A DNA stretch of 64,000 nt from Synechococcales cyanobacterium C42_A2020_086 (lineage in GTDB: Bacteria; Cyanobacteriota; Cyanobacteriia; Elainellales; Elainellaceae). Shown here one piece after another: positions 55,743-61,983 of this stretch (the first letter of the stretch is position 1; each line of letters begins with the position of its first letter). The position numbers and the translations under genes were made by a program. The notes beneath the pieces were generated by a model. The model was given only the letters and a program-made list of their open reading frames with translations, searched no databases and was not told the origin of the DNA. The DNA lies in assembly GCA_015272325.1 (NCBI GenBank), contig JACYLU010000015.1, forward strand, positions 62,001-126,000. The letters are read 5' to 3'.

Positions 55743-56225
55743 TTAAGAAACTCCTTCCCCCTCGCCTGAAGACTGGCGATGAGGCGGATCGATTGTGGCA
55801 ACGATTGGGTCTTCCGTTAACAGCTCCTCGTTGGCTTCTGTTGGCTCTAGAGACAGCTCTAGCGGCAACGTCACTTCAGACGCGGCAGACTGTTGTGCCA
55901 ACTGAGCCACATCGATCACCGTTGGCTCGCTCGGCTCGGCAGGAAGCTCTCCCTCGGTATCGACCTTAACGCGGCGGATCGGCAGGTTGGCAATTAGGGC
56001 AGTGGTGCGCTGATCGCTCTCTAGAGAAAACTCCGATCCAGCCGGGTCAATCTCCACATACCGCGACACGACTTGCAGAATTTCCTGACGCATTTTTTCA
56101 ACAATAGCAGGCGAGAGATCGGTGCGGTCGTGAGCCAAGACTAATTGCAAGCGCCGCTTGGCAGAGTCGCGGCTATTCTCTTGCTTCTGACGGGAGAAAA
56201 TTCGATCAAGCAGTTCAGTTAGCAT
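55743..56225 (-). CDS. minE: Cell-division topological specificity factor MinE, with long acidic tail
   Basis: The ATG at 56225 gives 160 residues. The first 90 are Min[16 protein letters not shown] membrane-binding start, [20 protein letters not shown] with the MinD-contact helix, and the dimer part with [19 protein letters not shown]. After that comes a tail of about 65 residues rich in Glu, Pro, Ser and Thr ([20 protein letters not shown] and on), which standard MinE lacks. The frame is open 24 codons upstream, but that part is not family-like. It follows minD closely (74 bp) on the same strand. MinE drives MinCD oscillation and allows division at midcell. Confidence 0.93.
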
Positions 56226-56299
56226 GGAGCATTGTTTGAGCAGCGGCATGGGGAGATGACATGAGAAAATCCGGCGGATGCAACCCAACTGAAGCAAGG

Positions 56300-57109
56300 T
56301 TAGGGCTTGCTGCGCCCGCGAAACAGCCGACGCAGGCGAGAAAACAGATCATCTTGCGGAGCCGTCAAGTCGAGGAAAGGCACCTTTTCCCCTTCCAAAC
56401 GACGAACGATGTTGCTAAACGCTACAGCCGCCAGCGAAGGATTTTCCGACAGTACCAGCGGTTCACCGCGATTCGTGGAGACAATCACGCGCTCGTCATC
56501 CGGCACCACGCCCAGCAGCGGAATCGCCAGAATTTCCTGCACGTCCTTCACCGACATCATCATGTCCTGCTCTACCATGGCGGGCTTGAGGCGGTTGATC
56601 ACTAGATACATCCGCTTGACATCGTTGGCTTCGAGCAGCCCTACCACCCGATCGGCATCGCGCACGGCTGCCACTTCTGGTGTGGTGACAATAATCGCCT
56701 CCCGTGCTGGAGAAATGGCGTTTTGAAAGCCCATTTCAATACCAGCGGGACAGTCAATCAAAATGTAGTGAAAGGCTTTGGTGAGGGCACCCACCAGTTT
56801 TTTCATCTGCTCTGGCGTTACCGCGTCCTTAGTGCGATTTTGGGCGGCGGGCAGTAGAGCCAGATTGGGCTGCCGCTTGTCCCGAACCAGCGCCTGATCG
56901 AGACGACACTCGCCTGCTAGCACCTCGACTGCCGTGTACACAATGCGATTTTCTAAACCCAGCAGCAGATCTAGGTTGCGCAAGCCGAAGTCAGCATCCA
57001 CGACTGCCACCTTATGCCCCCGCTGCGCTAACGCCATTCCGAGATTAGCGGTGGTTGTGGTTTTACCCACGCCTCCTTTTCCTGATGTAACAACCAAAAT
57101 CCGACTCAT
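56300..57109 (-). CDS. minD: Septum site-determining ATPase MinD
   Basis: A 269-residue deviant Walker ATPase. It begins with [19 protein letters not shown] holding both lysines. Switch regions [16 protein letters not shown] and [15 protein letters not shown] are intact, and the C-terminal amphipathic helix [15 protein letters not shown] serves as membrane anchor. MinD recruits MinC to the membrane and is displaced by MinE. It sits in the order minC-minD-minE, 124 bp after minC. Confidence 0.97.
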
Positions 57110-57233
57110 GGTGTGAAGTAGAAATTAAGTGATAGGGTCGAGGTTAATCCTGAGTTTGCATTCACAAAAGAATAATTGGGTAGTCACCGGGGGTAATCCG
57201 AAATGGGGCAGACAGCGCTGAACGGGTAGATGG

Positions 57234-58049
57234 CTATTCCTCTGCTTCGATGTCTGAGCTGACGGGAGGCAGCAACCGTTCCTTGGAGAAATCTGCCGCC
57301 CGAATAATCCGAATGCTGTCTGAAATCACGTAGGCAACCTCGGGCTGATATAGATTGGGAGGCGCTTCTGGAGCCCGAGCCACAAAATCGGCAATGCGGA
57401 GCTGCGTTGGCTCCATACGCAGTGCCATAATGACACAGCGTGTATTGCCTGCTGCACCCGCCTGTACTACACCTCGCAACATGCCCCACACCAGCACATC
57501 CCCGTCGGCAATGATCGTACTGCCAGGGTTGACATCTCCTAGAATTATCACTGTACCAGGATGACGAACCTCCATTCCAGAGCGGACCGTGGTTTGGATG
57601 TAGAGTGGTTCTGCCAGAGCCTGGCCGCTTTCCTCGGGTTGGTTGAGGTGGGCAACGGGTGATTGCTGTTCCACTGACAATCCGGTGGTTGCAGCGGCTA
57701 CGGCGGTTTGACGGCGACTTGTATACACCCGCTTCAACTGGAGTTGTGCCTCGGTTAGGGCATCGGCAATGGACTGGAGCTGCCGCCCGTCGAGTAAGCG
57801 ATCGCGAGCGATCAAATGGACCGGCGTATTGGGCTGCCAAAATCGCTCGCCCGCATTGAGGCGTTGTTTTAACTGCTGCCAAATGTCTGTCCAGGTTGCC
57901 GCCGAACTGACCACCTCAGTTTCGGAAGGCAGCAATAGCAGCAGCCGCCCACTCTCGCCTTTGAACCGTACCTGGGGCACCGGGCTAACCTCGGGTGCCG
58001 GTTGAACAATACTAGGAATCGCAGCCGGTAAAGAAGAATCAGAAGTCAT
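57234..58049 (-). CDS. minC: Septum site-determining protein MinC
   Basis: A 271-residue FtsZ-assembly inhibitor. The N-terminal domain is at about 25-120. A linker rich in Gln and Ala follows, and the C-terminal beta-helix domain has TTVRSGMEVRHPGTVIILGD, then VNPGSTIIADGDVLVWGMLR and GVVQAGAAGNTRCVIMALRM, the family signature that binds MinD. The C-terminal tail is acidic. The first gene of the operon; the 690-bp gap upstream holds its promoter and a small RNA candidate on the other strand. Confidence 0.94.
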   Translation of the reverse strand: MTSDSSLPAAIPSIVQPAPEVSPVPQVRFKGESGRLLLLLPSETEVVSSAATWTDIWQQLKQRLNAGERFWQPNTPVHLIARDRLLDGRQLQSIADALTEAQLQLKRVYTSRRQTAVAAATTGLSVEQQSPVAHLNQPEESGQALAEPLYIQTTVRSGMEVRHPGTVIILGDVNPGSTIIADGDVLVWGMLRGVVQAGAAGNTRCVIMALRMEPTQLRIADFVARAPEAPPNLYQPEVAYVISDSIRIIRAADFSKERLLPPVSSDIEAEE

Positions 58050-58289
58050 TGCAAGAAAACCGCAGGCTTCAACGATAGCAACAGACCATCAGGAACCAAA
58101 TAACTTTCCATCTTAGTCGCCTGCTTCCAAATTAGAACGACTTTAGACTTTTGTTTTACCAGAAGTTTTAGAGAACGGTTGAGCAGGCAAAAATTGGTGG
58201 TACTTTGCCTCAACGGATAACAGGATTCGAGTGCTGTCATGACAGTATGGGTACAGTATGGGCTAGGAACGCAATCAAGGTCCTTTTAT
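58050..58289. other. Gene-free gap upstream of minC
   Basis: ACAGTATGGG occurs at 58242 and 58253 (11-bp period). The minC promoter should be here on the minus strand. No other element is recognised. Confidence 0.4.
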
Positions 58290-58305
58290 TGTGATCATGA
58301 TCACC
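58290..58305. promoter_or_regulatory. CRP-type palindrome
   Basis: TGTGA-TCATGA-TCACC agrees with the cAMP receptor protein consensus TGTGA-N6-TCACA in all but the last base. Its inner 14 bases GTGATCATGATCAC are a perfect palindrome. The centre is about 62 bp before the predicted start of the small RNA below, a classical class I activator position. Cyanobacteria carry CRP homologs (SYCRP1) with the same consensus. Confidence 0.6.
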
Positions 58306-58357
58306 GAAAAATATGACGCAGATCGCGATCTTCCTCTAGCGAACCATGCATACTGAA

Positions 58358-58438
58358 AGAGACTCAACTCTAGCCGAGTCATCAACAGGGAACACACGAC
58401 TTGCCGACAGGGTCCATTTGGAGACTGTCGGTTTTTTG
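58358..58438 (+). ncRNA. Candidate small RNA, two hairpins, Yfr2-like
   Basis: A compact transcription unit without protein-coding potential. A possible -10, CATACT (58348-58353), precedes a 5' hairpin GACTC...GAGTC (58361-58380). Next comes a single-stranded stretch AACAGGGAACACACGACTTG, and last a strong terminator at 58404-58437. The layout (5' stem, exposed A/C-rich motif, terminator, about 80 nt) resembles cyanobacterial sRNAs of the Yfr2 type; I recall a GGAA-ACA-like motif there, but this assignment is tentative. The gene lies between minC (divergent) and the uracil-DNA glycosylase. Confidence 0.55.
58404..58437 (+). terminator. Strong Rho-independent terminator of the candidate sRNA
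   Basis: CCGACAG and CTGTCGG make a 7-bp perfect stem with a 14-base loop, followed by TTTTTT. No protein gene ends upstream on this strand, so it must end an RNA gene. Confidence 0.88.
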
Positions 58439-58741
58439 TTTCTAATTTTTGTCGCTGCTCGATGAGTGAAGTGGCGCGTGGAGAAGATCTCATCGAGAAG
58501 AAACGGCTGCAGAAATTCTCTGGCCGATTGAACCGGAATGTGTAGGGGGTGCTGCCCCCCTATATCGCTGAAATTAATTTGCCGGTAAGCGCTGGAGCAA
58601 CTGAGTAGAGCTGCGCTATCCAAAATCCCGCCTTGGTTTCTCTTGGATTTCTTAATTCTGTCTTTAGCTGTTGGACGAGACGAGAAGGAATGTTTTAAGA
58701 TACATGCCTTATTCACAGCATTCATAGCTGAATGTAGGCTC
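58439..58741. other. Gene-free gap upstream of the uracil-DNA glycosylase
   Basis: About 300 bp with no recognised element other than the probable glycosylase promoter. An open frame on the minus strand (58336-58848) overlaps the sRNA and lacks any family features. Confidence 0.4.
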
Positions 58742-59446
58742 ATGGCTAGCGACAACCAAATGGACCTGTTTAACCTGAGCGGCACAGCAGGTTCGATCTC
58801 CTCTCCTCCCGCAAACTTTGACCCCGAGCAGATTCCAACCAGTGCCAAAGTGCCAATTCCGCCCGGTACCTACGACTCAATGGCGGCCATGGCCGAGCAT
58901 TGCAACCGCTGTCATCGCTGTGAGTTGGGGGCAACCCGCACCTACGCTGTGGTTGGTCGCGGCAATCCGCAGGCAGACCTAATGATCGTCGGGGAAGGCC
59001 CGGGACAAAACGAGGATGAGACGGGGCTACCCTTTGTAGGAAAAGCGGGTCAGCTCCTCGACAAGATTTTGGCGTCGGTGCAGCTCACGGAAGCCGATGT
59101 GTTTATCTGCAATATCGTGAAGTGCCGGCCACCGGGCAATCGCCCCCCTACGCAAGAGGAAATGGATGCCTGCCGCCCCTATCTGCTAGAGCAAATCCGT
59201 ATGGTGGACCCTAAAGTGATTTTGCTGTCTGGCGCTTCGGCCGTTAGGGGTTTGCTGGGCGACAAGCGCGGCATCACCAAAATTCGCGGTGAGTGGATCG
59301 AGTGGCAAGGGCGGCTCTGTATGCCGGTATTTCACCCCGCCTATTTGCTGCGCAATCCCTCCCGGGAAAAAGGTAGCCCCAAGTGGCTGATGTGGCAGGA
59401 TATTCAAGCGGTGCGTAGCAAGCTAGCCGAGATAAATGCCGGATGA
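58742..59446 (+). CDS. Uracil-DNA glycosylase, family 4 (iron-sulfur type)
   Basis: The 234-residue enzyme starts at ATG 58742; the frame is open 33 codons upstream but unrelated. The iron-sulfur cysteines are Cys57 and Cys60 in CHRCELGATRTYAV, and Cys128 and Cys144 in KCRPPGNRPPTQEEMDACRP. The catalytic motif GEGPGQNEDETGLPFVGKAG and the His loop VFHPAYLLRNPS are intact. It removes uracil from DNA in base-excision repair. The first 45 residues are a variable tail. Confidence 0.94.
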   Translation: MASDNQMDLFNLSGTAGSISSPPANFDPEQIPTSAKVPIPPGTYDSMAAMAEHCNRCHRCELGATRTYAVVGRGNPQADLMIVGEGPGQNEDETGLPFVGKAGQLLDKILASVQLTEADVFICNIVKCRPPGNRPPTQEEMDACRPYLLEQIRMVDPKVILLSGASAVRGLLGDKRGITKIRGEWIEWQGRLCMPVFHPAYLLRNPSREKGSPKWLMWQDIQAVRSKLAEINAG

Positions 59447-60225: not shown

Positions 60226-61983
60226 TTACCAGCCAGACGCCAGCACCTGCACGCTGTTTTCTATCTTAGTTTTGTCCATGACAATGCAATTGCGCCCCTG
60301 AGCTTTAGCCTGATAAAGCGCTCGATCGGCTGTAGCTACCAACTGCGCCCCTGAGCTACCCGGACGAGGAATGATACTTGCGACCCCCAAGCTGAGGCTC
60401 ACCTGAGTGCTCACCTGAGAACTGCCGTGGGGTAACTTCAGTTCCTGAATCGCGGTTTGAATGCGTCGCGCCACATGAAGGGCACCCGCCGGAGGTGTGT
60501 TCGGCAAAATAATCGCGAATTCTTCGCCACCATAGCGAGCGACAACATCGGCAGGGCGTTTGACAGACTGCTGCAGCGCCAAGGCCACCTGCTGCAAACA
60601 GCGGTCGCCGGTTTGGTGACCATAGGTGTCGTTGTATTGCTTAAAGAAATCCACGTCGCAGAGAATCAGCGAGAGCGGCATTTGCAGTCGTCTTAGTCGC
60701 CACCATTCCTGATGAAGGCGATCATCAAAATAGCGTCGGTTAGCGACCTGCGTTAGCCCATCCACGAAGGCCAGACGCTCTAGCTCTTGATTGGCTTTGT
60801 ACAGCACAGCTTCGATGGCAACGCGCTTGTGGATTTCCTGCTGCAAGGCTTCCGTTCGTTCTAAAACACGCTGCTCAAGCTGCTGTGAATAGATTTCTAG
60901 TTCAGAGCGAGAGCGCTGGAGTTCGCGACTCATCTGGTTAAAAGAATGTGCTAGGCTAGCCAATTCCTGCACGCGTCCAACATTCACGGTCTGGCGGTAA
61001 TCGCCGCGAATAATGCGCTGACTAGCTTGGCTCAGGCGCAAAATCGGCTCGGCGAGCTTTTTGCTGAGATAGAGTCCAGTGCCGACTATCATCGCTAAGG
61101 CAATGCCACATAAGAGGGCGGTATCCGAGGCGGTATTACGAATCTGCCCGCCAAAGTCGGAAGTGGGAATGACCACCACAAGCAGCCAGTCAAGACCGAG
61201 TGTGTCGTTGAGGGGAGTGACTTGGGCAAAGTGACGTTGATGATTCAGCTTCAGCTCCCATGGCTGCGTCTGGGAAATCGCTTCATAGGTGCCAAACCGC
61301 CGCAGCAGAACCGTCGCCATTTGCCGAATTAGCGGATCTTGGCTACGAATCGCCAGTGCCCCCGCTGAAGCGTTTTCGATGGTCGAGAGTTGCCCCTCTG
61401 GAATGGCAGCCGCTATTAGTTCGCCCGTGCGATTGAGCAAAAACAGCCGCCCCGAATGACTGCCTTGAGCTTGCTGGAGCCAGTGACTCAATAGCGATAG
61501 GGGAATGCCCTCGCTGGCGAGCCGAGCCGCCGGGTTTAATGGAGTCTGGGTCCGCTCCGGGTTGTGGTTCCGCTCAATCTTGTGCTCAATCGTGATCGAC
61601 TGCCTCTCAGCCTCAATCCAGTGCAGGTCAGCAACCTCCTGCAAGCGCAGCCACTCTGGACGCTGTTCCCACCCAACGGCCTCACCCGACGGCAGCGGTT
61701 CGAAATTGAGCTGATTGACTAACAGTGCCGTTTCTAAGCGGAATTGAATGTGCTCCTGAGCATGCTGCGTCACTTGGCGGCAGAGCTGCACAGCAACTTC
61801 TCGAACTAACTGCTGGTGATAGTCCCAGGACAATATCCCCATTAGCCCTGTCACTGTCACCATCTGAAGTGCAAAGGGCACAACCAAAACAACATACAGC
61901 GGAATTTGACGCACTGAGCAACTGCGAGCCTGGAACAAGTTCCAACGCGACAGTAGCTGCAAGAACCGAGTCAGCAAAGGCAT
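60226..61983 (-). CDS. Membrane diguanylate cyclase with periplasmic sensor and HAMP
   Basis: The 585-residue protein has a first helix YVVLVVPFALQMVTVTGLMG at about 29-50 and an extracytoplasmic sensor of about 230 residues (dCache-like). A second helix at about 285-307 (LLCGIALAMIVGTGLYLSKK), a HAMP linker and a coiled coil follow. The GGDEF domain from about 410 has active-site GGEEF at 485-489. The RPAD sequence five residues before it is an intact inhibitory I-site. It makes cyclic di-GMP, with product feedback. Ligand is unknown. Start ATG at 61983. The exported hypothetical gene follows 8 bp later. Confidence 0.93.
   Translation of the reverse strand: MPLLTRFLQLLSRWNLFQARSCSVRQIPLYVVLVVPFALQMVTVTGLMGILSWDYHQQLVREVAVQLCRQVTQHAQEHIQFRLETALLVNQLNFEPLPSGEAVGWEQRPEWLRLQEVADLHWIEAERQSITIEHKIERNHNPERTQTPLNPAARLASEGIPLSLLSHWLQQAQGSHSGRLFLLNRTGELIAAAIPEGQLSTIENASAGALAIRSQDPLIRQMATVLLRRFGTYEAISQTQPWELKLNHQRHFAQVTPLNDTLGLDWLLVVVIPTSDFGGQIRNTASDTALLCGIALAMIVGTGLYLSKKLAEPILRLSQASQRIIRGDYRQTVNVGRVQELASLAHSFNQMSRELQRSRSELEIYSQQLEQRVLERTEALQQEIHKRVAIEAVLYKANQELERLAFVDGLTQVANRRYFDDRLHQEWWRLRRLQMPLSLILCDVDFFKQYNDTYGHQTGDRCLQQVALALQQSVKRPADVVARYGGEEFAIILPNTPPAGALHVARRIQTAIQELKLPHGSSQVSTQVSLSLGVASIIPRPGSSGAQLVATADRALYQAKAQGRNCIVMDKTKIENSVQVLASGW

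Follow-up and report, generated by a model that had tools for sequence, protein, structure and literature searches.

A predicted cAMP-CRP-activated small RNA gene conserved among cyanobacteria

In a 64,000-nucleotide stretch of the genome of Synechococcales cyanobacterium C42_A2020_086 (contig JACYLU010000015.1, positions 62,001 to 126,000; hereafter the window), we found a free-standing gene of approximately 77 nt that probably (roughly 80%) encodes a trans-acting regulatory RNA activated by the CRP protein bound to cyclic AMP (cAMP). Comparison across genomes shows a gene unit with a characteristic promoter layout, co-occurrence with CRP, a lack of coding capacity and the absence of a fixed neighbor. 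A reading of the window from its sequence alone had proposed a cAMP-controlled small RNA (sRNA) at this place. The part of that claim that calls for an sRNA gene controlled by a CRP-type activator has strong comparative support, because the RNA, the promoter and the sites are conserved as a unit and a CRP ortholog occurs alongside them; we infer the dependence on cAMP, as well as transcription itself, the sign of control and the pairing mechanism.

The RNA gene and its conservation

The predicted gene and its control region comprise these features, in window coordinates:

58290..58305, plus strand: predicted CRP site I, TGTGATCATGATCACC, center 58297.5, which is -63.5 from the predicted start
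58312..58327, plus strand: CRP-type site II, weak in the window (TATGACGCAGATCGCG), center 58319.5, which is -41.5
58349..58354, plus strand: -10 box CATACT, nearly invariant in the promoter logo
58361, plus strand: predicted transcription start (+/-1-2 nt), at the G that opens GACTC, seven bases past the -10 box
58361..58437, plus strand: predicted small non-coding RNA, about 77 nt, from its conservation, its fold and the lack of an open reading frame
58361..58380, plus strand: 5' hairpin GACUC-AACUCUAGCC-GAGUC (in DNA, GACTC-AACTCTAGCC-GAGTC), paired in nearly all homologs
58381..58403, plus strand: open A/C-rich linker AUCAACAGGGAACACACGACUUG (in DNA, ATCAACAGGGAACACACGACTTG), the probable interaction site
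58404..58437, plus strand: intrinsic terminator CCGACAG...CUGUCGG-UUUUUU, with a variable loop and six T after the hairpin

The sequence-only reading had described a 5' hairpin, an open A/C-rich motif and a terminator, and all three are present; the central linker sequence is AUCAACAGGGAACACACGACU in the RNA, and the fold of the 91-nt segment 58350-58440 beats that of 200/200 dinucleotide shuffles (z -3.4). A generic terminator scan did not report the terminator at 58404-58437, probably because its stem contains an internal loop. The same reading saw no protein gene ahead of the terminator, and this holds among relatives: none of 125 distinct homologs contains a frame that opens with ATG or GTG and stops within the RNA, and therefore the RNA is very probably non-coding.

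Conservation of the RNA cassette is far above chance. With 58260-58450 as the query against 40 genomes, the best match in relatives had an E value of 3e-42, and matches spanned either the palindrome and the RNA or the RNA alone; conservation of palindrome and hairpins in relatives was a check that the sequence-only reading had proposed. In the alignment of homologs, the block GACTCAACTCTAGCCGAGTCATCAACAGGGAACACAC is nearly invariant and the terminator loop freely variable, with the -10 box CATACT and the CRP palindrome visible upstream. Exact copies of the 23-mer GCCGAGTCATCAACAGGGAACAC were found in 68 stretches of named records, every one of them cyanobacterial (68/68), from Leptolyngbya, Oculatella, Phormidesmis, Myxacorys, Elainella, Stenomitos and many metagenome bins, and some of these stretches carry two to four copies in tandem. 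A covariance model trained on 44 sequences and run against 390 sampled genomes of the class found the RNA in 189, or about half, with copy numbers from a single gene up to a tandem array of five. Two divergent versions were also recovered: f32, which carries ACUGAACUCUAGCCGAGUCAUUAAUAGGGAACACAC and whose genomes were HetR-positive where tested, and f26, which carries GACUCAGUACUAUCCGAGUC and includes genomes of approximately 2.6 Mb that lack HetR; we take these to be Nostoc-like and Thermosynechococcus-like, respectively. There were no homologs (0) in the viral contigs, plasmids and phages searched.

The 125 distinct RNAs, for whose collection GGGAACACA formed part of the search anchor, share one structure: pairing predominates in the 5' stem and in the terminator stem, and the linker and the 10-nt loop of the 5' hairpin are mostly open. 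The linker segment GGGAACACA (58388-58396) is also present in every row of model alignment A2, which was built without that anchor. In the terminator, 96% of pair cells are kept and two pairs have changed on both sides. The 5' stem varies little, the f32 versions lack its end pairs, and the covariation score for the whole structure is not clearly above that of shuffles; therefore covariation support for the 5' stem is weak.

The promoter and its candidate activator

We compared 129 distinct promoters, in each of which the start was inferred from the -10 box. The inner palindrome of site I, GTGATCATGATCAC at 58291-58304 within TGTGATCATGATCACC, had been seen in the sequence-only reading together with its TGTGA-N6-TCACA flanks, and in the window site I does match 9 of the 10 letters of that consensus; a search with TGTGATCATGATCACA, allowing up to 2 mismatches, found this palindrome as the sole match in the 5.93 Mb genome. 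Site I keeps 8 or more of the 10 consensus letters in 115 of the promoters, with the center at -63.5 in 84 and at -64.5 in 30. The spacing from the -10 box to the hairpin is as in the window in 103, so that in most promoters the probable start falls on the G that opens GACTC. The palindrome had been placed at about -62 and taken for a simple class I site at -61.5. From the start expected at G58361, given the -10 box CATACT at 58349-58354, its center is instead at -63.5, and that reading had missed a second CRP-type site at -41.5.

This second site, usually TGATCnnGATCGC, is centered at -41.5 in 101/129 promoters, 22 bp downstream of site I. We read it as a CRP site because it is a perfect or near-perfect CRP palindrome in some lineages (L034, L047, L055, L075, L090 and L099; e.g., TGTGATCTCGATCACT) and the only good site in others (L137, L139, L140, L143 and L144; e.g., TGTGATCATCGTCACA). 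The promoter logo contains no conserved -35 box, and the combination of a site at -41.5, a -10 box and no conserved -35 is the class II layout. The layout agrees with that described for cyanobacterial CRP promoters, in which the -10 box lies approximately 22 bp downstream of TGTGAN6TCACA (PMC2633013). We therefore replace the class I reading by a predicted class II promoter whose upstream site is strong.

Conserved GATC tetranucleotides (GATCnnGATC) form the core of both CRP sites (58290-58327 and homologs); methylation of GATC could alter CRP binding, or GATC could simply be the CRP optimum. We also noted one copy of the RNA with an intact core and without recognizable CRP sites or a CATACT box (L062:5110-5194); it is a second copy in its genome bin and is perhaps under other control or decayed.

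A candidate for the activator is encoded in the same genome. The recognition helix of this CRP/FNR-type protein (G000:C34:355522-356220, minus strand), RETVTRVL, resembles RETVGRIL of Escherichia coli CRP; the protein also has a nucleotide-pocket-like motif, GEMAPLDEVPRST, and the E. coli catabolite activator is among the solved structures that it matches. Close orthologs of CRP, defined by E below 1e-60 and counted by hand over the 390 genomes, are present in 283: they occur in 177/189 genomes with the RNA compared to 106/201 genomes without it (Fisher P = 3e-21, uncorrected for shared ancestry). Thus, CRP appears to be close to necessary for the presence of the RNA, but not sufficient. The 12 RNA-positive genomes without a close CRP ortholog are mostly incomplete assemblies, although one of the 12 is rated 99% complete.

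Genomic neighborhood and tandem arrays

The RNA gene has its own predicted promoter and terminator, and the genes around it vary between genomes, with no fixed neighbor. The commonest neighbor, found at 37 loci (e.g., L033), is a single protein family, HAS-barrel-like by eye, which lies downstream and is usually convergent, a partial synteny. A uracil-DNA glycosylase-like gene adjoins the RNA at 13 loci. The sequence-only reading had placed the RNA beside the min operon, but minC and minD are near it at only 4 of the loci compared. The neighbors differ between genomes, so we consider the RNA a free-standing unit and its proximity to the min operon incidental. In the window itself, by eye, the region upstream on the opposite strand (55743-58049) contains MinC-, MinD- and probably MinE-like genes, a uracil-DNA glycosylase-like gene lies downstream at 58740-59446, and a GGDEF-type membrane protein is encoded at 60226-61983.

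Whole-cassette tandem repeats of two to four copies are found at many loci (L018, L033, L039, L057, L058, L066, L070, L074, L081, L095, L107, L108, L110, L111, L114, L151 and L153), and genome G093 has five RNA matches. The tandem spacing ranges from 159 to 686 bp, most often 163-184 bp, and each of the printed copies carries CRP sites, a -10 box and a terminator. These arrays suggest selection for dosage.

Proposed function, alternatives and known systems

We propose that cAMP-bound CRP would switch on the RNA gene, such that CRP at -41.5 would stand in for the missing -35 box, as in class II activation, with help from the usually stronger site I, which lies 22 bp farther upstream on roughly the same helical face. 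The RNA would end at its own terminator, and its conserved open linker, perhaps together with the 10-nt hairpin loop, would most likely pair antisense with mRNAs. Three screens looked for such targets: a 17-mer complement with at most 3 mismatches in this genome; a 13-mer with at most 1 mismatch in 22 genomes, from which 100 sites were fetched and their genes compared; and a 14-letter pattern that avoids the RNA gene itself in 242 genomes, which gave 29 sites, with a similar number for the reversed control. The counts were close to those of the controls. No gene recurred with a site near its start codon, either among the 100 sites from 22 genomes or in the 242 genomes, and short or imperfect seeds (6-9 nt, typical for sRNAs) would escape these screens. 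A duplex test with Cyano-1 RNAs gave long bulged pairings of no clear meaning. Several points weigh against the proposal: long complementary sites near start codons are at chance level, the -41.5 site in the window is weak (7/10), the helper site upstream, at -63.5, misses the usual class I position by 2 bp, and many genomes with a CRP ortholog have no RNA.

An alternative, in favor of which the fruitless complementarity screens also speak, is that the CRP-activated RNA binds a protein through its invariant linker, as a decoy or scaffold, rather than pairing with mRNAs. A handful of changing targets would not require a linker as conserved as this one, and AGGGA resembles the CsrA-type motif ANGGA. 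However, CsrA (PF02599) is absent in 20/20 genomes (this one plus 19 more), each RNA has a single copy of the motif compared to the repeats in known decoys, and the screens would have missed typical sRNA seeds of 6-9 nt. We thus consider protein binding unlikely, and we rejected an RNA that sequesters CsrA/RsmA in particular on that absence in 20/20 genomes. It is less probable still that the promoter sites are read by another regulator of the CRP/FNR family instead of cAMP-CRP. The genome does encode several other CRP/FNR-type proteins, and site II deviates from consensus in most species, but TGTGAN6TCACA is the published site of SyCRP1 and AnCrpA (PMC2633013), the RETV helix was found only in the C34 protein among the CRP/FNR-type proteins translated, and the site of NtcA is GTAN8TAC (PMC3898017).

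The terminator, with a gene on the same strand (58743-59446) approximately 300 bp downstream in the window, might instead point to a 5' leader or attenuator of that gene. This is very improbable: the downstream genes vary between genomes and are often convergent, and tandem arrays repeat the whole unit, and on synteny we rejected the leader reading. A different kind of doubt concerns novelty, since the RNA may already have been reported as an unnamed Nostoc sRNA start site in the supplementary tables of a survey (PMC4734099). We regard this as a realistic prospect, if one we lean against, as the core sequence is in no paper searched and a text search gave no CRP-driven cyanobacterial sRNA. We found no published name or sequence for the RNA and no CRP- or cAMP-controlled cyanobacterial sRNA in the literature, subscription papers and the Nostoc survey tables (PMC4734099) lying outside the search.

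If the RNA is a CRP-activated, trans-acting regulator as we propose, then cyanobacterial cAMP signaling probably has an RNA arm. Although cAMP has long been known as a signal in cyanobacteria, most of the outputs described for it are genes for pili, motility and nitrogen-related functions. A broader version, to which we give slightly less than even odds, is that this arm is ancient, with CRP at paired sites at -63.5 and -41.5 driving one sRNA family that controls shared core mRNAs, and with dosage set by tandem duplication, in filamentous and some small-genome, unicellular-looking lineages. An sRNA so conserved and so closely linked to CRP sites would offer a direct handle on post-transcriptional cAMP control that is testable in cultured genera such as Leptolyngbya and Phormidesmis, and would give Rfam a large family that it now lacks.

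An Rfam scan for Yfr1 and Yfr2 had been suggested, and the RNA is neither of them; scanning the window and distant homologs against Rfam gave no family over the RNA. Like Yfr1, it is a short RNA with two stem-loops and a conserved open linker that is widespread in cyanobacteria, but the hallmark of Yfr1, the unpaired motif CACUCCUCACACC (PMC4734099), is absent from this linker (AUCAACAGGGAACACACGACU), and descriptions of Yfr1 give it a conserved guaB-trxA position and little regulation, whereas this RNA has varied neighbors and CRP sites. The Yfr2/Cyano-1 RNAs of cyanobacteria are similar in being abundant and multi-copy and in having open motifs of the GGA type, but their sequence differs and the RF01701 covariance model has no match at this RNA; its match in the same genome is elsewhere (G000:C23:80519-80591). 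CyaR of E. coli is a short trans-acting sRNA activated by cAMP-CRP, and the predicted role of this RNA follows the same regulatory logic, in another phylum and with no sequence relation (no Rfam match). PsrR1 and IsaR1, whose reported regulators are RpaB and Fur, are conserved trans-acting cyanobacterial sRNAs as well. They are set apart by those regulators and by length (131 and 68 nt; PMC6202907), that is, by description and not by sequence. Finally, the promoter shares with those of SyCRP1 and AnCrpA targets the TGTGAN6TCACA site and a -10 box approximately 22 bp downstream (PMC2633013), but here two sites lie 22 bp apart and the predicted product is an RNA rather than a protein.
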